The notes beneath the pieces are model-generated. The model worked only from the letters and a program-made list of their open reading frames with translations, did not search any database and was not told where the DNA came from. The position numbers were made by a program, and so were the translations under genes. A stretch of 64,000 nt of DNA from Anaerolinea thermophila (GTDB lineage: Bacteria; Chloroflexota; Anaerolineae; Anaerolineales; Anaerolineaceae). The number at the start of each line of letters is the position of its first letter. The stretch's first letter is position 1. Positions 33,616 through 55,484 of this stretch are shown here, piece by piece. The DNA is taken from assembly GCF_020723905.1 (NCBI RefSeq), contig NZ_DYHZ01000006.1, forward strand, positions 62,001 through 126,000. Direction: 5' to 3'.

Positions 33616-35658
33616 TTATTCTTCTCCCGCAAGAAGACGGGCGCGCTGGAGAGGTGTCAAATCCGATTCCTCAACCAGTAGAGCCTTCAGTTCAAATACC
33701 TGATCACGTAAAGCGGCAGCCCGCTCAAACTCCAAATTGCGCGCGGCTTGTTTCATTTGTTTTTCCAACTCTTGAATCATGCGCTGGAGTTCATTTCTCG
33801 GCAAGCCGTGAGGTGTTCCAGTACGATACTCACCGCCCTTTTCAGCGACCATCTGAGGCTGTACGCCCATTTGTTGGGTGATGTCGTGAATGGCTTTTTG
33901 AATGCTGACAGGAATAATGCCCATTTTTTCGTTATACGCCATCTGCTTGGCGCGCCGACGATTGGTTTCCTCAATGGCAGTCCGCATGGCGTCAGTCACG
34001 TGATCTGCATACATGATCACCTTTCCATGAACATTGCGGGCGGCACGTCCAATCGTTTGAATCAGTGCCGTAGCGGAGCGTAAAAAGCCTTCCTTATCCG
34101 CATCCAGAATAGCCACGAGGGAAACTTCAGGTAAATCCAATCCCTCACGAAGCAGGTTAATCCCCACCACTACGTCAAAAACGCCAAGGCGAAGATCACG
34201 TAAGATACCCACCCGTTCCAGCGTTTCCACCTCCGAGTGCAGATAATGGACTTTAATGCCCAATTCCATGAGATACTCTGAGAGGTCTTCTGCCATGCGC
34301 TTGGTTAAAGTGGTGACCAGAACGCGCTCTCCAACCTCAACCCGCATGCGAATCTCACGTATCAAGTCGTCAATTTGTCCGACTGTAGGTCGCACCTCCA
34401 CTTCAGGATCAATTAACCCTGTGGGACGGATAATTTGTTCCACAACCTGTTCGGCTCTTGCCATTTCATATGGCCCGGGGGTCGCGGATGTGTAAATCAC
34501 ATACCCCATGTGCTGCTCAAATTCATCGAACTTCAATGGGCGGTTATCCAGCGCAGATGGAAGGCGGAATCCGTAATCCACCAGTACCTGTTTGCGGGAC
34601 CGGTCGCCGTTGTACATCCCTCGAATTTGCGGAATGGACATGTGAGATTCGTCAATGAACAACAGATACTCACTGGGAAGGTAATCAATCAATGTCCACG
34701 GGGGAGAACCCGGTGGACGCTGATCCAGGTGGCGGGAGTAATTCTCAATGCCCGAGCAATAGCCAACTTCCCTGAGCATTTCCAGATCGTAAAGCGTTCG
34801 TTGTTCAATGCGCTGGGCTTCGAGTAGTTTTCCCTGAGACTTGAAATAGGCAATCCGTTCTTGAAGTTCCTGTTCAATATCCTGAATGGCTTTTTTCAGA
34901 GATTCTTCTTTGGTGACATAGTGTTTCGCCGGGAAAATGCTGATTTGCGTAGGTTGTCCATAGACCTCTCCGGTGAGAGGGTTGAATTCCAGAATTCGTT
35001 CCACCTCATCGCCAAAGAATTGAATGCGGTACGCCCGGCGGTCTTCGTATGCCGGGAATACTTCGAGCGTCTCCCCACGAACCCGAAACACCCCTGGACG
35101 TAATTCCATGTCGTTTCTCTGATACTGACTCTCCACCAGTATCCGCAGCAAAGCATTACGCCGGTAAATGTGCCCTACTTCCAGAGTGACGGCTTTATTT
35201 CCGTACTCTTCCGGGCTACCCAAACCATAAATACAGGACACCGAAGCCACAATAATGACATCCCGTCGAGTCATCAACGCCGTCGTTGCTGAAAGTCGTA
35301 ACCGTTCAATTTCCTCATTAATGTCGGCATCTTTCTCAATATACAAATCCCGTTGAGGGACGTAAGCCTCGGGCTGGTAGTAATCGTAGTAAGAAACAAA
35401 GTACTCTACCGCATTTTCTGGAAAGAACTCTTTGAACTCAGCATACAATTGAGCCGCCAGCGTCTTGTTATGGGCAATGACCAGCGCCGGCATGTTCAAC
35501 CGGGCAATGATATTTGCCATCGTAAATGTTTTACCCGTTCCTGTCGCCCCCAGAAGCACCTGATGACGCATGCCCTTGCGGATTCCTTCTACAAGTTTCT
35601 CAATGGCTTCTGGCTGATCGCCCATGGGCTGGAAAGGCGCGTGAAGTTTAAAATCCAT
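33616..35658 (-). CDS. uvrB: Excinuclease ABC subunit B
   Basis: [59 protein letters not shown]. Confidence 0.97.
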
Positions 35659-35832: not shown

Positions 35833-35861
35833 TTGACTTTTAATTCTGCGGCGATTATGAT
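35833..35861 (+). promoter_or_regulatory. Candidate sigma-70-type promoter
   Basis: TTGACT (35833-35838), 17-nt spacer, TATGAT (35856-35861). Confidence 0.6.
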
Positions 35862-35867
35862 TCGAAT

Positions 35868-36040
35868 CGTAAAGAATTTTAGTAATTTGTATCTTTTTCA
35901 AACTCACGTTTGATTTTGAAAAAGTGGAGGCGATGACTCGAGGACTGTAAATTGGTCGCTTGCTCGAATTTTCGAGCAGAAGCCTCGATGAGCCAATGGC
36001 GAAACCGTCCACTTGACACCCGTCAGTGGGCTTTTTCTTT
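35868..36040 (+). ncRNA. Candidate structured leader (riboswitch/attenuator-like) upstream of glycan operon
   Basis: P1 AAGTGGA 35922-35928/TCCACTT 36008-36014; P2 TCGAGG 35938-35943/CCTCGA 35983-35988; P3 TGCTCGAA 35961-35968/TTCGAGCA 35971-35978; pseudoknot ATTGG 35951-35955/CCAAT 35993-35997; then terminator. Confidence 0.55.
36007..36040 (+). terminator. Intrinsic terminator at the end of the leader RNA
   Basis: GTCCAC-T-TGAC-ACCC-GTCA-GTGGGC followed by TTTTTCTTT. Confidence 0.75.
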
Positions 36041-36134
36041 ATTCCATAACGCCTTGCAGCATCCTCATGCCCACGGATGAGCGAGAGAGAACAACAGAAC
36101 AACGCCTTCCGTCAGGATAGAAAGGGAGAAGCAA

Positions 36135-37643
36135 GTGGCGTCCTTAACGAAAAAAACAGGAATTCCCACAACCGAAAAACACCAATTCCGCATTCTGCAC
36201 CAGATTGCCACCCCGCAGCAAAAGCATCAGTGGCGTGCGTTAACCATTGCTCTGGTGATTCTGGATGCAATCTCAATTGCTTCTGGTTTTCTGGTGGCTT
36301 ATCTCATCCGGTTTGAACTCAATCTCCCCATCTTCTTTTCCGTTGAAGAAAGTGTATCCTTGCGTTTTTACCTGTTTTTAGGGATAGTCCTGCTCCCTCT
36401 CTGGTTGGGGATTTTTGCCCTCCACGGACTGTACTCTCGCCCTAATCTACTGGGAGGAACCAAAGAGTATTCTCTCCTGTTCAACGCCACCACCATTTCC
36501 ATGTTTCTCATTATTACCGCAAATTTCCTGATACCGGATTTCATTCTGGCGCGAGGATGGTTACTCCTGACCTGGATTTTTGTATTCCTGTTCTCATTCC
36601 TTACACGCTTCCTTTTTCGACGGGCGATTTATTTTCTACGTCGAAAAGGTATGTTCATCAGCAATGCCATCATCGTAGGCACAAATGCGGAAGCCCAACT
36701 TCTGGCAAACCAGTTTGATCCACCAAATTCCTCTGGATTAAGAGTGGTAGGCCATATTGATTGCCCTTCCTCATCCTCCAGAGCAATCCCCAACGAAAGC
36801 ATCCTGGGAGATCTTAACGATATCGAGAAAATCGTCCACGAGAAAAATGTTGAAGAAATCATCATTACTTCAAGTGCAGTAAACGCACAGGATATTGTCA
36901 GTTTATTCAAATTGTTTGGGATTGCTGAGGGAGTCAACTTAAGACTTTCTTCGGGTGTGTATGAAATCATTACCACAGGATTGCAGGTTCAGGAAATTGC
37001 CTCGGTTCCCCTGGTCAAGGTCAACAAAATTCGGCTAACGGGTTGGGATCAGGTACTCAAAAAGGCTCTTGATCTGGGGCTCTCCTTGCTTTTACTGCCG
37101 TTGATTCTTCCCATCGGTGCAATCATTGCACTTTGGATTGCACTGGATTCCAGAGGCCCGGTGTTTCATCGCCGCCGGGTCATGGGGGTCAATGGGCGCA
37201 CCTTTGATGCATTCAAATTCCGCACCATGTATGTCAACGGGGATGCCATCCTGGATGCCTATCCAGAATTAAAAGCCCAACTGGCTCGAGAGCATAAGTT
37301 AAAAGATGATCCCCGGGTCACCCGGGCAGGCAGATTCTTACGCAAAACCAGCCTGGATGAACTCCCTCAAATCATTAATGTTATTAAAGGGGAAATGTCG
37401 CTGGTGGGACCAAGGATGATTTCCCCCGAGGAAATGGAGAAGTATCAGGAACATGGGATGAACCTGCTCACTGTGAAACCCGGCATTACCGGTTTGTGGC
37501 AGGTGAGCGGGCGTTCTGATGTCTCTTATGATCAGCGCGTCCAGATGGATATGTACTATATCCGAAACTGGAGCATCTGGCTGGATTTGCAAATTCTTTT
37601 CAGAACTATTCCGGCTGTCCTCAGCCGTAAAGGGGCATATTAA
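36135..37643 (+). CDS. Polyprenyl glycosylphosphotransferase (initiating sugar transferase)
   Basis: N-terminal TMs and CoA-binding-like domain; C-terminal [55 protein letters not shown] start with AAGGGAG RBS. Confidence 0.93.
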
Positions 37644-37666: not shown

Positions 37667-38641
37667 GTGATTATCGTTCAATCTCCGCTTCGAATCAGTT
37701 TCTTTGGTGGTGGAACAGACTTTCCGGATTACTATCTTCAGGAAGAAGGCTGTGTCCTTTCGACTGCAATTGATAAATACATCTTTGTTGTCATTAAACA
37801 ACGGTATGACGATAAACTGCGTATTGGTTACACACGTACCGAAATGGTAGAGCGGGTGGATGAAATTCAGCATGAACTTATCCGTGAAGCCTTGAAGTTG
37901 ACGGGTATAGAGAAAGGCGTCGAAATTACCACAATGGGAGATATTCCTGCCGGATCCGGACTAGGATCGTCCAGCGCAGTCACGGTAGGCGCTCTTCATG
38001 CCATGTACACTTATTTGAATGAAAACATCCCTGCCGCTCGGCTTGCCAGAGAAGCCTGCGAAATCGAAATCGAACGATTGAAAAAGCCAATTGGGGTTCA
38101 AGATCAGTATATTTCAGCATTTGGTGGAATTCGATTCATTGAATTTAAGCGGGACGGTTCTATTCATGTGCATCCGGTTTCGCTGGACCCGGCTGTAAAG
38201 CGACACCTGAATGAGAGCCTGCTGATATTTTTCACCGGAGTCACCCGTCAAGCCGATTCGATTCTCACCGAACAACAACAGAACATTCAACAGCGCCTGG
38301 TAATCTTACGAGAAATGAAAGACATGGCAAAAACAGCCCGTCAGGAACTACTTCGTGGCAACGTGGATGTGCTGGGAAAACTGCTACATGAGAGCTGGCT
38401 GTTGAAAAAGCAACTTGCCAGCGGAATCAGCAATGGCATGATTGAGGAAGCCTACGAATCTGCCCGGTCTGCTGGCGCACTGGGCGGAAAAATCGCTGGT
38501 GCTGGAGGAGGTGGTTTTCTGTTGCTTTATTGTCCTTATGAAAAACGGGAAGCCGTGAGATATGCTCTCCGTTCGATGAAGGAACTGCCTGTCCAGTTAG
38601 AGCCGGACGGCAGTAAAGTGATTTTCAATTATCGTCGCTAA
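37667..38641 (+). CDS. GHMP kinase, D-glycero-D-manno-heptose 7-phosphate kinase-like
   Basis: [53 protein letters not shown]. Confidence 0.85.
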
Positions 38642-39198
38642 GTGCAAGATACCTGAGAACAGATATGAACCAGTGCTTCTGCCAGATTATCAAACGTATG
38701 GAAAGGAGGCAATTCCGCCACCTGCGGCAATTGGGACTGGTGGTTCCCTCTGCCAGTGCGCACCAGAATGGCTTCGCGAACCCCTGCCGCCCATCCTGCC
38801 TGGAGATCGCTCAACGCATCTCCCACCATAAAGGAACGCGACAAATCCAGGTTCATGGCACTGGCAGCTTGCAAGAGCAACCCGGGTTTGGGTTTTCTGC
38901 AGGAACAGTTCGCTTCTGGTGCGTGCGGGCACATCCACGTTCCATCTATGCGTCCCCCCATCACCTGGATATAGTCAATCACCCTGCGATTGATTTCCAG
39001 AGCCGCTTCCAGGGTAATCAACCCCCGCCCAACCGCAGATTGATTGGTAACCAGAACAATGCGCAACGGGGTGTCTCGAATGGAGCATAACGCATCGACT
39101 GCTGCCGGGATAAAGGCCACATCTTCCCAGCAGCGCACATACTGATCACGGTTTTCGATGATGACCCCATCTCGATCCAGAAAAATGGCCGCATCCAT
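38638..39198 (-). CDS. HAD-IIIA phosphatase, heptose 1,7-bisphosphate 7-phosphatase (GmhB)-like
   Basis: [46 protein letters not shown] Zn loop; listed upstream start (39552) overlaps the divergent CDS, so ATG 39198 preferred. Confidence 0.87.
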
Positions 39199-39389: not shown

Positions 39390-40928
39390 ATGCTTGTTCA
39401 ACAATTTCTTGAAAAGAGCGCCGAACGGTTCCCAGAAAAAAACGCGCTGATTTGCGGTTATCAGAAATTGACCTACGCTGAGATAGAAGAGAAAGCCAAT
39501 CGGATAGCCAATGCCTTGATTTTCTCAGGATTTCGTCGGGGGGACCGCGCAATTCTGCACATTGGCAATACTACAGAAGCCGTTTTATGCATTTTTGGCA
39601 TCCTCAAGGCTGGCGGGGTGTTCACTGTCTTGCATCCTTCAACCCCACTGGAAAAAGTTGCTTTTATTCTCGAAGAAACTGAAGCAAAAGCGTTCTTTGC
39701 AGGCTCAAAACCCGGTGATATCCCACGTTTCTCCTTTGAAAAATATCGCCCATCTATTCTGATTCAGGTTCCCTCGCAAACCTCCCCCAATTTTGAACTT
39801 CAGGGATGGATTAAATTCCATGAATTACTGGGCTTTGATTCTGGACGCCCCGATATTCTTTGTATTGATCTGGACCTTGCCACCATTATTTACACATCGG
39901 GAAGCACGGGAGAACCAAAAGGGGTGATGTCTGACCATAGCAACGTAGATTTTGCCACCGATTCGATCATCTCTTATCTTCAAAACACCCCAGACGACAT
40001 TGTGATAAACTTCCTGCCCCTTTCTTTCGACTACGGATTGTACCAGTTGCTCATGACGTTTAAATTTGGTGGAACGCTCGTATTAGAAAAAAGTTTTGCT
40101 TTTCCCACAAACATTCTGGAAAAAATACAACGGGAGAAAGTGTCTGGATTTCCCGGAGTACCCACGGTTTATGCCACATTGCTCCAAATGGATTTATCCC
40201 CATATGACCTTACCAGTATTCGATACATGACCAATACGGCAGCAGCATTGCAAGTCAGCCAAATCCAGCAAATCCTGCAAAAGTTCCCCTGGGTCAGGTT
40301 CTATTCGATGTATGGTCTCACTGAGACGAAACGAACGCTTTACCTTCCCCCAGAGCAATTGAGTCTTCGTCCCAGGTCCGTGGGGATTCCTATCCCGGGA
40401 ACGGAAGTTTGGATTGTAGATGAACATGGAAACCGGCTTCCTCCCGGGGAGGTAGGGGAGTTAGTGGTGCGAGGGCGTCACGTGATGCGGGGATACTGGA
40501 AAGATCCTCAAGCCACCTCAGAGCGCTTTCGTCCGGGAATTTATCCCAACGAGCACGTCTGCTTTACGGGAGACCTGTTTACCTGCGATGAAGAAGGCTA
40601 TTACTACTTTGTAGCCAGAAAGGATGATGTTATCAAAAGTGGTGGGGAAAAGGTTGCCCCTCTGGAAATTGAAAGAGTCATTTCCCAAATTCCGGGCGTT
40701 GTTGAAGTCGCTGCCATTGGTGTTCCCGACCCCATCCTGGGACAGGCTATTGAGGTATACCTCGTATCTCAGAACCCCCACCTGACCAGTAAAGAAGTAT
40801 TACAGTATTGTGTCCAACATCTTGAGAATTTCAAAGTACCCAAAGAAGTGCATTTTGTACCCGATTTGCCTAAAACAAATAGCGGGAAGATCAATAAGCG
40901 AGCATTAAGGGGAGAAATCCCCGCATAA
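39390..40928 (+). CDS. AMP-dependent synthetase/ligase (acyl/aminoacyl adenylating)
   Basis: IIYTSGSTGEPKGVMSDHSNV; YGLTE; GELVVRGRHVMRGYWKDP; KTNSGKINKRALR. Confidence 0.9.
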   Translation: MLVQQFLEKSAERFPEKNALICGYQKLTYAEIEEKANRIANALIFSGFRRGDRAILHIGNTTEAVLCIFGILKAGGVFTVLHPSTPLEKVAFILEETEAKAFFAGSKPGDIPRFSFEKYRPSILIQVPSQTSPNFELQGWIKFHELLGFDSGRPDILCIDLDLATIIYTSGSTGEPKGVMSDHSNVDFATDSIISYLQNTPDDIVINFLPLSFDYGLYQLLMTFKFGGTLVLEKSFAFPTNILEKIQREKVSGFPGVPTVYATLLQMDLSPYDLTSIRYMTNTAAALQVSQIQQILQKFPWVRFYSMYGLTETKRTLYLPPEQLSLRPRSVGIPIPGTEVWIVDEHGNRLPPGEVGELVVRGRHVMRGYWKDPQATSERFRPGIYPNEHVCFTGDLFTCDEEGYYYFVARKDDVIKSGGEKVAPLEIERVISQIPGVVEVAAIGVPDPILGQAIEVYLVSQNPHLTSKEVLQYCVQHLENFKVPKEVHFVPDLPKTNSGKINKRALRGEIPA

Positions 40929-40965
40929 CATTCAGACATTTTTTGGTTAAATCAGGAGGTCCCCC

Positions 40966-41229
40966 ATGAATTCCATTGAAGAACAGATTCGATCATACAT
41001 TGCCCAGAATATTTTATTTTCCACAAATGGGTTCCCCTATCCAGATACAGCCTCGTTTCTGGAAAACGGCATTGTGGACTCAATGAATGTGCTGGAAATT
41101 GTGATGTTTGTTGAAGAAAAGTTTAGCATTAAAGTCGAAGATGCAGAAATCATCCCTGAAAATTTTGACTCGGTCGCCCAACTGGCATCCTATATCCGCA
41201 GGAAACAATCTCTGGTGCTCAATCAATAA
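40966..41229 (+). CDS. Acyl carrier protein-like
   Basis: ENGIVDSMNVLEIVMFVEEKF: DS phosphopantetheine motif; 87 aa between two ligases. Confidence 0.87.
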   Translation: MNSIEEQIRSYIAQNILFSTNGFPYPDTASFLENGIVDSMNVLEIVMFVEEKFSIKVEDAEIIPENFDSVAQLASYIRRKQSLVLNQ

Positions 41230-41246
41230 GGTGAGAAGGGGAACAT

Positions 41247-42734
41247 ATGAATACTGCTGATTATTTACTTGAACGGGGAAGAGATAATGATGTCGCTCTG
41301 GTTCTTCCAGAACACCGGTATACCTACGCTGACATTCGCCAGGGCAGTTCCCGCGTTCTGGCGGCATTGCTTCAATGCGGAGTACAACCGGGCGATCGGG
41401 TGGCAATACTGGGAGCCAATTCGTTTTTCTGGGTTTGTTCCTACCTGGCAATTTTGAAAAGTGGCGCAATTGCAGTCCCCCTTGCCACTACCCATACTCC
41501 TGAAGAAACTCAAAAATTCATAGCGTTTACTGGAACCCGAATAGTGCTTGCTGAAAAGCGCCTGTATCCAAAATTTCTTGCTTCTTTAGACGGACAAATC
41601 GGCACACTTTTCGAGGATATTCTTTCATCTTCCCAATCCGTTTGGGATGTACCTGACCTTCATTTCAACCTCGATCAGGATGCCGCTTTGATGTCCACAT
41701 CTGGCACTACTGCGCGTCCCCGTGCCGTCAGAGTAACCCACAGGAATATTCAAGCCAACACCAATTCAATTATTGAATACCTTGAACTGGATTCATCGGA
41801 ACGAATGATGGCAGTGCTCCCCTTTTACTACTGTTTTGGGACCTCCCTGCTCCATACCCATTTGAGGGTGGGTGCCTCTCTGGTCTGCGGTGGGTCATTC
41901 ACCTATCCAGAAACAGTGCTGGACTTGATGGAAGCAACCCAATGCACGGGATTTGCCGGAGTACCTGCCATTTATCAGACTCTTCTGCGTAATTCCAGTT
42001 TTCCGCGAAGAAAATGGACCTATTTGCGAAAACTCCAGCAAGCCGGAGGAAAACTGCAAAACATCTTGATACAAGAATTGATGCACGCCGTGCCTCACGC
42101 CAAAATTTTTGTCATGTATGGGCAGACTGAAGCCACAGCCCGATTGTCCTATCTTCCCCCCGATTTATTACCTCATAAACTTGGCTCTATTGGCAAAGGT
42201 ATTCCAGGGGTAACCCTGCGTGTCCTGAACGAGGAGGGTAAACCGGTAAAACCGGATGAGGTTGGAGAAATTTATGCGCGAGGCGATAATATCTGCCCGG
42301 GTTACTGGGATGATCCCGAAGCCACCGCAGAAAAATTTGTCAACGGAGAATTGAAAACAGGTGACTTGGCAACAGTAGATGCCGATGGCTTTTTTTACAT
42401 TGTGGATCGGAAAGCCGATTTCATCAAAACTTACGGGTATCGGGTCTCCAGCCAGCAAGTTGAAGCGGTGTTGATGGAAATTCCCGATCTGGTTGCCGCC
42501 GCAGTGATTGGCGAACCAGACCTTGTTCGTGGAGAAGCCATTTTAGCCTTTGTGGTTCTCCGGGATGGTGCCACGTTAAACGAAAAAGAGATTCTAACCC
42601 ACTGCGCAAAACGGCTACCCAATTACATGGTGCCCAGGGATGTGTATTTCGTGCCAGTCCTCCCAACCAATGCACATGGAAAAGTGGTTAAAACCGAGTT
42701 GCGTAAACAAATTAGTCGAAAAGAGACGCTGTAA
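41247..42734 (+). CDS. AMP-dependent synthetase/ligase, variant P-loop
   Basis: ALMSTSGTTARPRAVRVTHRNI; MYGQTEATARLSYLPP; GEIYARGDNICPGYWDDPEAT. Confidence 0.88.
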   Translation: MNTADYLLERGRDNDVALVLPEHRYTYADIRQGSSRVLAALLQCGVQPGDRVAILGANSFFWVCSYLAILKSGAIAVPLATTHTPEETQKFIAFTGTRIVLAEKRLYPKFLASLDGQIGTLFEDILSSSQSVWDVPDLHFNLDQDAALMSTSGTTARPRAVRVTHRNIQANTNSIIEYLELDSSERMMAVLPFYYCFGTSLLHTHLRVGASLVCGGSFTYPETVLDLMEATQCTGFAGVPAIYQTLLRNSSFPRRKWTYLRKLQQAGGKLQNILIQELMHAVPHAKIFVMYGQTEATARLSYLPPDLLPHKLGSIGKGIPGVTLRVLNEEGKPVKPDEVGEIYARGDNICPGYWDDPEATAEKFVNGELKTGDLATVDADGFFYIVDRKADFIKTYGYRVSSQQVEAVLMEIPDLVAAAVIGEPDLVRGEAILAFVVLRDGATLNEKEILTHCAKRLPNYMVPRDVYFVPVLPTNAHGKVVKTELRKQISRKETL

Positions 42735-44716
42735 TGTGTGGAATTGCCGGGGTCATTGCTTCTAACCCGAGCCCCCCTGTTCAACAGGATGTCCTGTTGG
42801 GGATGATTTCCATGATTAGCCATCGGGGACCGGATGAGTTTGGGTTGTACCTGAATAAACAGGTGGGGATGGGCAGTGCCCGGCTCAGCATTATTGACCT
42901 TAGTGGAGGGCAGCAGCCCATATCCAACGAAGACCAGTCCTTATGGATTGTGTACAACGGAGAGGTATTTAATTACCCGGAGTTGCGCGGACGTTTACAA
43001 GCCCTGGGACATACCTTTACCACCCGCACAGATACAGAAGTCATTCTGCACCTGTACGAGGAATATGGAGCGGACTGTCTGAACCTTTTGAACGGGCAAT
43101 TTGCCATTGCAATCTGGGACGAAAGGAATCGGTCTTTGTTTCTGGCACGGGACCGCCTGGGAATTCGCCCGCTGTATTACACCCAAACCCCTCAAGCCTT
43201 TGTGTTTGGCTCAGAAATGAAGAGCATTCTTGCATACCCCGGGATCAATGCTGAAATCAACCGGGATGCTCTTGTAGAGACATTTGTCTTCTGGAGTCCT
43301 CAACCGCCCCTCTCCACCTTTTCCAATATCTTCCAGATCCCGCCAGGGCATTTTCTTTTATACCAGGATGAAAAAATCCATCTTCAGCCTTACTGGAGTC
43401 TGAACTTCTCTGACAGAGACGAACCTCAGATTCCCATGAAAGTGGCTCTGGAAGAATTGCAACGCCTTTTGCTCGATGCCACCCTGATTCGTTTACGTGC
43501 AGATGTCCCGGTTGGAGCCTATCTCTCTGGAGGATTGGATTCCTCCCTCACCACCGCCCTGATTCGAAAATACTCTCAAAGCCGGCTTGAAACGTTCTCA
43601 ATTGCGTTCTCGGATCCCCAGTATGATGAGAGTGCGTTCCAAAAGAAAATGGCAGAAACCCTGGGAACGCATCACCATGTAGTCTATACCACTTACGAAG
43701 ATATTGGGCGAAAATTTCCAGAGGTGCTCTGGCACACCGAAACCCCCATCCTCCGAACTGCTCCCGTTCCCATGTACCTGCTTTCAGATCTGGTGCATCA
43801 ACATGGTTTTAAAGTGGTCATCACAGGAGAAGGAGCCGATGAACTCTTTGGCGGATATGACATTTTCAAAGAAATGATCATTCGCCGCTTTTGGGCGCGC
43901 AACCCGGAATCCACCCTGAGACCCAGATTACTGGGTACGCTCTACCCGGAAATTGCCGGACTTTCAGACTCCGCGAGAAATTTTTTCATGGCGTTTTTCA
44001 AGATGGACTTAACCGCGACCCAATCGCCTTATTATTCCCACATGATTCGATGGAAGAACGGGATGCGGCTTTTGCGATTCCTTCAACCTCAACCCGCCCA
44101 GGAATGGGTGTCACTGGCTCAACGCCTGCCTTTACCGGCAAGGTTCGATTCCTGGAACGCACTTTCAAAAGCCCAGTATCTGGAAATTACCACCTTTCTT
44201 TCTTCCTATCTGCTCTCATCCCAGGGCGATCGAGTAGCCATGGCGCATTCTGTAGAAGGCAGGTTTCCCTTCCTGGATTATCGAGTGGTTGAGTTTGCCA
44301 ATCAATTGCCCGCGGAATGGAAGTTATATGGATTGACAGAGAAATGGATTTTACGGCAAATTGCCCGTAACCTGTTGCCTGAGGAGATCTGGAAAAGGCG
44401 AAAGAAACCCTATCGCGCTCCCATCCATAAAAGTTTTTATCATCCCAACCCGCCAGATTACGTAACCGAGATAACCTCCCCCGAGTTCTTAGAGGAAACC
44501 AGCCTGTTTAATCCTCTGGCAGTAAACCAGTTATTTCAGAAAGCCTCTCGTGGGATTCCTCTCAGCGAAGTGGAAGACATGGCAATCGCCGGTATCCTTT
44601 CCACCCAATTGATTTACAGGCAATTTATTCAACATTTTCCTTCACCCCAAAGGAATCAGTTGCCATTAAACAAAATTAAAGTCATTCGCAGAAATTCAGA
44701 AGGGACTATTTTATGA
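42734..44716 (+). CDS. asnB: Asparagine synthase (glutamine-hydrolysing) family
   Basis: Met-Cys-Gly N-terminus MCGIAGVI; SHRGPDEFG; VPVGAYLSGGLDSSLTTALI. Confidence 0.92.
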   Translation: MCGIAGVIASNPSPPVQQDVLLGMISMISHRGPDEFGLYLNKQVGMGSARLSIIDLSGGQQPISNEDQSLWIVYNGEVFNYPELRGRLQALGHTFTTRTDTEVILHLYEEYGADCLNLLNGQFAIAIWDERNRSLFLARDRLGIRPLYYTQTPQAFVFGSEMKSILAYPGINAEINRDALVETFVFWSPQPPLSTFSNIFQIPPGHFLLYQDEKIHLQPYWSLNFSDRDEPQIPMKVALEELQRLLLDATLIRLRADVPVGAYLSGGLDSSLTTALIRKYSQSRLETFSIAFSDPQYDESAFQKKMAETLGTHHHVVYTTYEDIGRKFPEVLWHTETPILRTAPVPMYLLSDLVHQHGFKVVITGEGADELFGGYDIFKEMIIRRFWARNPESTLRPRLLGTLYPEIAGLSDSARNFFMAFFKMDLTATQSPYYSHMIRWKNGMRLLRFLQPQPAQEWVSLAQRLPLPARFDSWNALSKAQYLEITTFLSSYLLSSQGDRVAMAHSVEGRFPFLDYRVVEFANQLPAEWKLYGLTEKWILRQIARNLLPEEIWKRRKKPYRAPIHKSFYHPNPPDYVTEITSPEFLEETSLFNPLAVNQLFQKASRGIPLSEVEDMAIAGILSTQLIYRQFIQHFPSPQRNQLPLNKIKVIRRNSEGTIL

Positions 44717-48506: not shown

Positions 48507-48604
48507 AATTCTTCTCAAGGTAAAACCCATCCGCTACATATAATGAGGGTGATGGCGTTTTATGAAGTTTACTGGTGGTTTTCATTTTGATTAACAGAAA
48601 TCTA

Positions 48605-49909
48605 ATGAATAGACGACATTTTCTGAAAAAACTGACCTCTCTTTCTCTTTTCCCCTTGTTTCAGGCATTAGGGCTGATCACACTGGCTGGAGGAAATACA
48701 TCCTGTCAGCCTCAGGGTATAGAACCCGCCCGAGTAGATTCCCTCCCCCAGGACACTTCTATCCCTACACCTTTTCCAACTTCCTCACCACCCCCACCTC
48801 CCCTCGCCGTAACGCCAACACCTGTGCAAGTCATCACTGTGGAGGCTACCGTAACCCCTCCCCCGCCTGTCAAAGCCGATTTCGGGCGTCATGTCATTCA
48901 TGTACACAATTCAAAAGCCACTCACTGGAACAGCCAGAAACGTTACTGGGAATATGTAGACCAGCAAGTGGTTAACCAGATGATGGAGAAAGGGATCACA
49001 GCATTGACAGAAACCTCCACTCTGGAAGATGCCTGGAGAACATTACTTCCCGGTTATCAACCTGGAGATGCCATTGCCATCAAGTTGAATTTCAATAACA
49101 CAATCTGGGAAAACTGCAACGAGGAAAGCGGACAAATCAACGCCCTGCCGCAGCCGGTGAATGCAGTGATTGCAGGGTTGAAATCCATTGGCGTTGAGGA
49201 AAAAGATATCTGGTTGTTCGATGGAGTGAACAGGATTATTCCCCAATACTTTGTAGCGGGAATTGCATATCCCAACGTCCGCTACTTCGATCGCTGTCAC
49301 GAACCGGTCACCTACGATTCGCAAGCCGAATCGGCATTTGTGGCTTTTCATCCCCCTGATGGAGTCCAGATGCCTACCCGCCAGAAAATCGCTGATCTTC
49401 TGCTACAGGCACGCTACCTGATCAATATGCCCATCCTCAAAAGCCATGGATGTTCCAGCATCACTTTGGGGTTTAAGAATCATTTGGGCAGCATTGATAA
49501 TCCCGGGGGACTCCACAGCCATATTTTCCTGGTTTCGGCATGCGGAGGCGGCTTCACCCCTCAGTACAGTCCTCTGGTTGATTTATTCCTGAATCCCAAT
49601 ATTCGGGACAAGACCATTTTGACCATCGGAGACGGGTTGTTTGGGGGAAAAGGCAGTGAGGATACATTCCCCTCCACCTGGTCTACTTTTGGGGGTTCAG
49701 TTCCCAACAGTCTGTTCTTTTCAACTGATCCCGTTGCCATTGACAGTGTAATGGCTGACTTCCTGCGCGCAGAACCTGGCGCAGGAGTTATGAGCAAGGC
49801 TGATGAATATCTGTTCTTTGCTGAACAGGCAGGACTTGGAAACGCAGAACGAGGCATTCCATGGGGTAAGGGCTATCAGGACATCCTTTACCAGAAAGTC
49901 GAAGGATAA
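48605..49909 (+). CDS. DUF362 domain protein with Tat-like/lipoprotein signal
   Basis: MNRRHFLKKLTSLSLF; ILKSHGCSSITLGFKNHLGSI; DPVAIDSVMADF; aligns with 54204..55484. Confidence 0.82.
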   Translation: MNRRHFLKKLTSLSLFPLFQALGLITLAGGNTSCQPQGIEPARVDSLPQDTSIPTPFPTSSPPPPPLAVTPTPVQVITVEATVTPPPPVKADFGRHVIHVHNSKATHWNSQKRYWEYVDQQVVNQMMEKGITALTETSTLEDAWRTLLPGYQPGDAIAIKLNFNNTIWENCNEESGQINALPQPVNAVIAGLKSIGVEEKDIWLFDGVNRIIPQYFVAGIAYPNVRYFDRCHEPVTYDSQAESAFVAFHPPDGVQMPTRQKIADLLLQARYLINMPILKSHGCSSITLGFKNHLGSIDNPGGLHSHIFLVSACGGGFTPQYSPLVDLFLNPNIRDKTILTIGDGLFGGKGSEDTFPSTWSTFGGSVPNSLFFSTDPVAIDSVMADFLRAEPGAGVMSKADEYLFFAEQAGLGNAERGIPWGKGYQDILYQKVEG

Positions 49910-54203: not shown

Positions 54204-55484
54204 ATGGGTAAAAAAGTATCCAGAAGACGTTTTTTAGCCCTTGTTTCAACCGGGGCACTCTCCACGCTGGTTGGCCTGATGCACCTGAAAGACGAACTGG
54301 TTCATGGACAGGGCGGCGCAAACTCCATATTTCTGCCCCTCGTTCTGAAACCCAGCCAGCCAACAGTCACCCCGACACCGGTTACACCCAGCCCAACCCC
54401 AACGCCCAGCCCGACGAATACCCTGCCGCCGCCTGGAGGAGCGCGTGTCGTTCATGTGCGCCACACCTCAGTAACCAGCTGGACGGAAAGCCCTTATGAT
54501 TACTGGAATTACGTCAGTCAAGACAAAGTCGATCTCATGGTTGAAGAGGGATTAAAGACTCTGACCGGGCAGACCAATCTTGCCAGTGCGTGGCAGGTCC
54601 TCTTACCCAATTATGTGCAGGGGCAGGGGATTGCCATCAAAGTGAATTTCAACAATGCAATGCAAATGGCATGTGGAAATGAAACAGGACAAATTAATGC
54701 CTTGCCTCAAGTCATCAATGCCGTAATCAAAGGACTGAAAGCACGGGGGGTGGTAGAAACGGATATCAAAATTTACGATGGAGTCAACCGCATTTTTCCC
54801 CTATATTTTATTAACGCCATTCGCGCGAGATATCCGAATGTACAGTTGTTTCATGCCTGCGCAGATGACGCCCACAAAGTGACGTACAATTCCACCCAAT
54901 CCAGCGCTTCGGTTCAATTTTCACCGCCCTCCGGAGTACCCAGCCCTGCTCCCCAGAAAATCGCTGATGTGCTGGTAAACGCTTCTTATCTGATTAACAT
55001 CCCTATTCTGAAACATCATTCCTGTGCAGGAATTACTCTGGGTTTTAAAAATCACTTTGGCACCATCAGCAATCCGGGAGGAGTGCACAGTCATATTTTC
55101 TTGAATGATGACTGTGGAGGAGGCTTTTACACCGATTACAGTCCTCTGGTGGATATCTATAAAAATCCAAACATTCGAAACAAAACCATTCTAACCCTGG
55201 GCGATGGAATTTTCGGTTGTCTGGAAAGGGAAGATGCCACGCCTTCTTACTGGGCAAAAACATTTGGTGAAGGGGAGTTCCCAAAAAGCCTCTTTTTCTC
55301 CAGGGATCCGGTGGCAATTGACAGCGTGATGGCAGATTTTCTCCGTACAGAATCCGGGTATTTCCAGTATGCTGACAAATACCTGGATTTGGCTCAAGAT
55401 GCAGGACTGGGAACTTACGAACAAGGCGATCCATGGGAGAGTGGATACAGCCAGATTGATTACCAAAAAATCGTCCTGACCTGA
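54204..55484 (+). CDS. DUF362 domain protein with Tat signal and Thr/Pro linker
   Basis: MGKKVSRRRFLALVSTGALS; IFLPLVLKPSQPTVTPTPVTPSPTPTPSP; ILKHHSCAGITLGFKNHFGTI. Confidence 0.83.
   Translation: MGKKVSRRRFLALVSTGALSTLVGLMHLKDELVHGQGGANSIFLPLVLKPSQPTVTPTPVTPSPTPTPSPTNTLPPPGGARVVHVRHTSVTSWTESPYDYWNYVSQDKVDLMVEEGLKTLTGQTNLASAWQVLLPNYVQGQGIAIKVNFNNAMQMACGNETGQINALPQVINAVIKGLKARGVVETDIKIYDGVNRIFPLYFINAIRARYPNVQLFHACADDAHKVTYNSTQSSASVQFSPPSGVPSPAPQKIADVLVNASYLINIPILKHHSCAGITLGFKNHFGTISNPGGVHSHIFLNDDCGGGFYTDYSPLVDIYKNPNIRNKTILTLGDGIFGCLEREDATPSYWAKTFGEGEFPKSLFFSRDPVAIDSVMADFLRTESGYFQYADKYLDLAQDAGLGTYEQGDPWESGYSQIDYQKIVLT

Follow-up and report, generated by a model that had tools for sequence, protein, structure and literature searches.

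The intergenic region between uvrB and a surface-glycan operon of Anaerolinea thermophila carries a structured leader RNA, which raises the question of what class of RNA this is and in which direction it might switch the genes that follow. An initial annotation had treated it as a candidate novel riboswitch or attenuator of no recognizable class. Membership of the c-di-GMP-II riboswitch superfamily (Rfam clan CL00127) was judged by a covariance-model match above the curated cut-off. An Rfam scan of the window (the whole stretch of DNA analysed, 64,000 nucleotides), which the initial annotation had itself named as the check, gave one match above gathering, to the c-di-GMP-II-GAG family (RF03169; 51.6 bits against a gathering cut-off of 40) over the aptamer interval in Table 1. 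The match is complete over model positions 1–86 and was recovered again with the short stretch alone as the query; a further hit, to Ms_IGR-7 at 36000–36083 (16.6 bits against a gathering cut-off of 45), is noise. The leader is therefore a copy of a known riboswitch class, and the claim of novelty falls by the refuting condition that the initial annotation had set for itself, a significant Rfam hit to such a class; the list of classes excluded earlier contained c-di-GMP-I and omitted c-di-GMP-II. We conclude, with a probability of about 0.92, that the leader is a c-di-GMP-II riboswitch with a terminator platform and that it acts, as predicted here, as a transcriptional ON switch.

Table 1. Features of the leader and the adjacent genes (window coordinates)
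Feature	Positions	Strand	Basis
uvrB, divergent, upstream	33616..35658	-	PF12344, PF17757
Sigma-70-like promoter, TTGACT - 17 - TATGAT	35833..35861	+	Consensus scan 10/12; position fits
AU-rich hairpin before aptamer; 3' arm overlaps first P1 bases	35893..35924	+	-9.9 kcal/mol; window only
Aptamer, c-di-GMP-II (RF03169, CL00127), 102 nt	35917..36018	+	Rfam full-length match; RF01786 45.9 bits; covariation
P1 5' strand, pairs with 36009-36014	35922..35927	+	Both-side changes at all 6 pairs in relatives
GGC of 3-bp helix, with GCC 35992-35994	35929..35931	+	First pair covaries GC/UA/AU/CG
P2 5' strand, pairs with 35983-35988	35938..35943	+	94% paired cells; each of the 6 pairs changes on both sides
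Pseudoknot 5' strand GGUCGC, pairs with 35999-36002 and 36005-36006	35954..35959	+	100% paired
P3 stem-loop TGCTCG/CGAGCA, variable	35961..35978 (35961-35966/35973-35978)	+	Fold and alignment
A equivalent to A61 of canonical class II aptamer	35995	+	Invariant in 47 relatives; mapping by inference
AACCG, A69 A70 C71 C72 G73 ligand contacts, canonical A-A-G	36003..36007	+	AAG in 90/90 leaders
Intrinsic terminator, stem 36007-36031 then TTTTT; 5' arm is P1 3' strand and G73	36007..36036	+	Direct fold
Exopolysaccharide polyprenyl glycosylphosphotransferase (sugar transferase), predicted controlled gene	36135..37643	+	TIGR03025 421.5 bits (cut-off 295.55), PF02397
GHMP kinase, D-glycero-D-manno-heptose 7-phosphate kinase-like	37667..38641	+	NF049969 169.7 bits (below cut-off 600), PF00288/PF08544

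The RF03169 score, covariation in P1, the 3-bp helix and P2, and a pseudoknot of the form GG-NNNN/NNNN-AA-CC place the leader in clan CL00127. In an alignment of 47 aptamers from this and related genomes, 71, 93 and 94% of the cells are paired in P1, the 3-bp helix and P2, respectively, and 13 of the 15 pairs in these helices change on both sides in some relative. P1, P2 and P3 lie where the initial annotation had drawn them and all show compensatory changes, those in P3 being weak where the alignment is loose. The whole-structure covariation score is 0.394 against 0.150 in shuffles, none of 500 of which reach the observed value; relatedness alone can beat this control, but sliding the structure along the alignment, which retains relatedness, still separates the two, with scores falling to 0.07–0.16. 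The 186-nt leader is more stable than 198 of 200 shuffles (z = -2.39).

The class II core is formed by the pseudoknot between GG-UCGC (35954–35959) and GCGA-AA-CC (35999–36006), which is paired in every row with letters and shows a compensatory U-A to A-U exchange in locus L027. The same exchange is read from the sequence of L048 (GGACGC/GCGTAACC), the alignment row of which is misaligned. A different pseudoknot, ATTGG/CCAAT, had been suggested earlier, but only 76.5% of its cells pair, as in shuffled columns, and none of its pairs changes on both sides among the 47 relatives; its GG and CC serve the real pseudoknot and the 3-bp helix instead. The AU-rich hairpin preceding the aptamer was rejected as a conserved part of the switch, being absent from the leaders of L007, L046 and L083–L085.

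The canonical c-di-GMP-II family, RF01786, also matches the aptamer at 45.9 bits, below its gathering cut-off of 53.5, which is exceeded by three matches across 61 related genomes. By score the aptamer thus falls outside RF01786 proper and inside RF03169, whereas at positions 69/70/73 it has the A69/A70/G73 contacts of the former and A-A-G in place of the G-A-G of the latter. Helices and pseudoknot topology are likewise those of the RF01786 aptamer from C. acetobutylicum (PDB code 3Q3Z), but the pseudoknot is UCGC/GCGA where the RF01786 consensus has GCAC/GUGC. With RF03169, which gives the best sequence and structure score, the aptamer has in common the GG-UCGC pseudoknot and a GAGCC scaffold, but not the G69 of the high-scoring members. 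Positions 13, 37 and 61 were tentatively mapped by reference to the arrangement of the C. acetobutylicum aptamer. The contact list used for A61 is that published for the class II aptamer, which includes C68, A69, A70, C71, C72, G73 and A74 (PMC7288161).

Other readings of the RNA have to be weighed against this assignment. An unrelated novel riboswitch or attenuator for some other ligand (a sugar nucleotide used in glycan synthesis, for example) would suit the glycan-biosynthetic gene downstream, but is exceedingly improbable: the Rfam match spans the full model length, and the genes that follow the same RNA elsewhere encode response regulators (22 of 90 leaders), acyltransferases and secreted proteins, a range more in keeping with a second messenger than with a metabolite of one pathway. 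We also consider it very unlikely that the leader is a GAG-variant c-di-GMP-II aptamer, with an altered pocket and possibly altered ligand affinity or specificity. RF03169 is the best-scoring Rfam family, yet the window reads GCGA-AA-CCG where the RF03169 consensus is GCGA-GA-CCG and that of RF01786 is GUGC-AA-CCG, and its score is low among members (51.6 against up to 79.2 bits). All 90 leaders of the lineage carry A-A-G. By comparison, when the best RF03169 locus per genome was taken from a tool-drawn sample of 301 Chloroflexota genomes, 15 of the 29 high-scoring loci examined had G-A-G (the others being A-A-G in five, G-C-G in three, A-C-G in three and other combinations in three). We infer that 'GAG' in the family name refers to the identities at 69/70/73; the variant was reportedly defined in a 2017 NAR paper. 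The sub-label was rejected as a description of the pocket on nucleotide identity, the signature G69 being missing, and the leader appears to be a real, functional-looking c-di-GMP-II riboswitch whose pocket is predicted to be canonical, with the Rfam sub-label probably reflecting similarity of scaffold. The best-scoring sub-label can therefore name the wrong pocket variant, which matters when ligand specificity is inferred from a family name. Class II aptamers in the phylum sample (L163–L191) differ at 69/70/73, with GAG, GCG, ACG, AAG and a few GCC or GAC. The ACG type, which is not known to correspond to any Rfam variant name, may be either an additional pocket variant or an artefact of the alignment.

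The direction of switching is predicted from the terminator. The stem together with TTTTTCTTT folds at -13.9 kcal/mol and has 36009–36013 in common with the 3' strand of P1; an automated terminator scan of the region returned none, probably owing to a bulged U in the stem, and the direct fold recovers it. Nascent RNA up to position 36020 folds with P1, and once complete the terminator fold is the minimum, at -48.5 kcal/mol against -39.3 kcal/mol with the aptamer helices forced (both energies leave aside the pseudoknot, ligand and kinetics). The mutual exclusion of P1 and terminator noted in the initial annotation is conserved, as a terminator of -8 kcal/mol or better starting within the 3' strand of the pseudoknot occurs in 80 of 90 homologous leaders compared with 139 of 900 shuffles (15%) under the same rule, and the expression-platform logic of an ON switch ahead of a glycan gene is supported with it. 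The terminator takes its 5' arm from the 3' strand of the aptamer itself, with no anti-aptamer strand between, so that bound ligand can only counteract termination. The prediction is therefore an ON switch, which is how class II riboswitches behave in C. difficile (PMC11477304). This widely kept geometry makes an OFF switch, or action through translation and not termination, extremely unlikely, even though most relatives have a terminator that begins further into the pseudoknot strand than the G73/P1 start seen in the window, and GAG members with high scores from other parts of the phylum often appear by eye to have no obvious terminator and to lie near a start codon.

For a transcriptional ON switch, bound c-di-GMP would let P1 and the pseudoknot hold 36007–36014 and so block the hairpin 36007–36031, allowing RNA polymerase to read into the sugar transferase and heptose-kinase-like genes; with no ligand, the more stable terminator would form and transcription would halt at the T tract. 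In the sessile state, when c-di-GMP is high, more surface glycan would then be made. Most likely the leader lets the surface-glycan operon be transcribed when c-di-GMP is abundant, and high c-di-GMP probably turns on glycan synthesis. A false lead to a novel riboswitch is replaced by a testable prediction, namely that c-di-GMP turns on this glycan operon. The promoter-like site proposed earlier is present and may drive the leader, but is weak statistically (two sites of that quality in 600 bp against 0.8 expected). The sugar-transferase gene has a GTG start with AGGGAG upstream, and the GHMP kinase gene is probably the next gene of the same operon.

Similar arrangements are known from C. difficile, where class II aptamers precede the type IV pilin operon (Cdi2_4) and CD2831 (Cdi2_3). 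The class II switches of that organism govern surface and adhesion genes and raise expression with c-di-GMP, i.e. are ON switches (PMC11477304, PMC3649979), whereas in Anaerolineaceae the targets comprise glycan genes together with genes for response regulators and for secreted proteins. A group I ribozyme such as that of Cdi2_1 was not found in the Rfam scan of the window, in which the aptamer is the only match.

The genome, which is of Anaerolineaceae type, encodes 16 GGDEF and four EAL domains and contains three further copies of the riboswitch, making four with that of the window. One (L002/L005) lies upstream of an operon with an acyltransferase, a glycosyltransferase and GmhA-GAF; the other two are neighbours (L003/L004/L006), one before a secreted Pro/Thr-rich protein with a sortase and one before an OmpR-type response regulator. 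Of 61 related genomes, 33 contain the riboswitch family. Sugar-transferase homologues are preceded by leaders of this kind in L007, L046, L010/L085 (Longilinea arvoryzae, Anaerolineaceae), L083 and L084, as are acyltransferase homologues in L017, L058 and L079. The orthologous leader of Longilinea arvoryzae spans L085:2161-2263. Among the best 80 relatives of the sugar transferase, only three have the leader directly upstream, so the link of the riboswitch to this gene is lineage-limited; in two further relatives (L099 and L102) the leader is ahead of a response regulator adjoining the sugar-transferase gene.

The response regulators preceded by 22 of the 90 leaders belong to one OmpR-type family with an IGIDLDE-like N-terminus (L003, L011, L012, L022, L043, L045, L047, L054 and others). 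From its gene context, this family is predicted to be a recurrent riboswitch-controlled regulator in the lineage. A literature search limited to open-licence papers returned none joining Anaerolineae, c-di-GMP and riboswitches, and RNA-based c-di-GMP control in Anaerolineae seems little described. We give an even chance to a broader picture in which Anaerolineaceae-type bacteria have a c-di-GMP-ON regulon built from canonical-pocket class II aptamers on a GAG-like scaffold, beside Chloroflexota with GAG, GCG or ACG; in that case the phylum would form a natural series of pocket changes, and the regulon would have the riboswitch-controlled response regulator as a hub that recurs and glycan operons, that of the window among them, as its outputs.

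Several relatives carry class II aptamers in tandem, as pairs or triplets (L044:401-731, L047:3001-3393, L040:401-611, L073:401-623 and L082:3001-3257), and in some of these arrays (L044, L040) the leading aptamers seem to be without their own terminator. Heptose-like genes (window 37667–39195 and L005:7822-8964) lie close to or under two of the four copies of the riboswitch, comprising an HddA-like kinase, a GmhB-like phosphatase (minus strand) and a GmhA fused to GAF, with NCBIfam scores below the equivalog cut-offs; this suggests a c-di-GMP-controlled heptose-containing glycan. Further downstream (window 39390–44716), two acyl-CoA-ligase-like genes, a carrier protein and an asparagine-synthase-like amidotransferase resemble PEP-CTERM/exosortase-associated families. 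Two similar signal-peptide proteins (window 48575–49909 and 54204–55484; ..VIHVHNSKATHW.. and ..VVHVRHTSVTSW..) flank a PQQ-like repeat protein and large secreted proteins.
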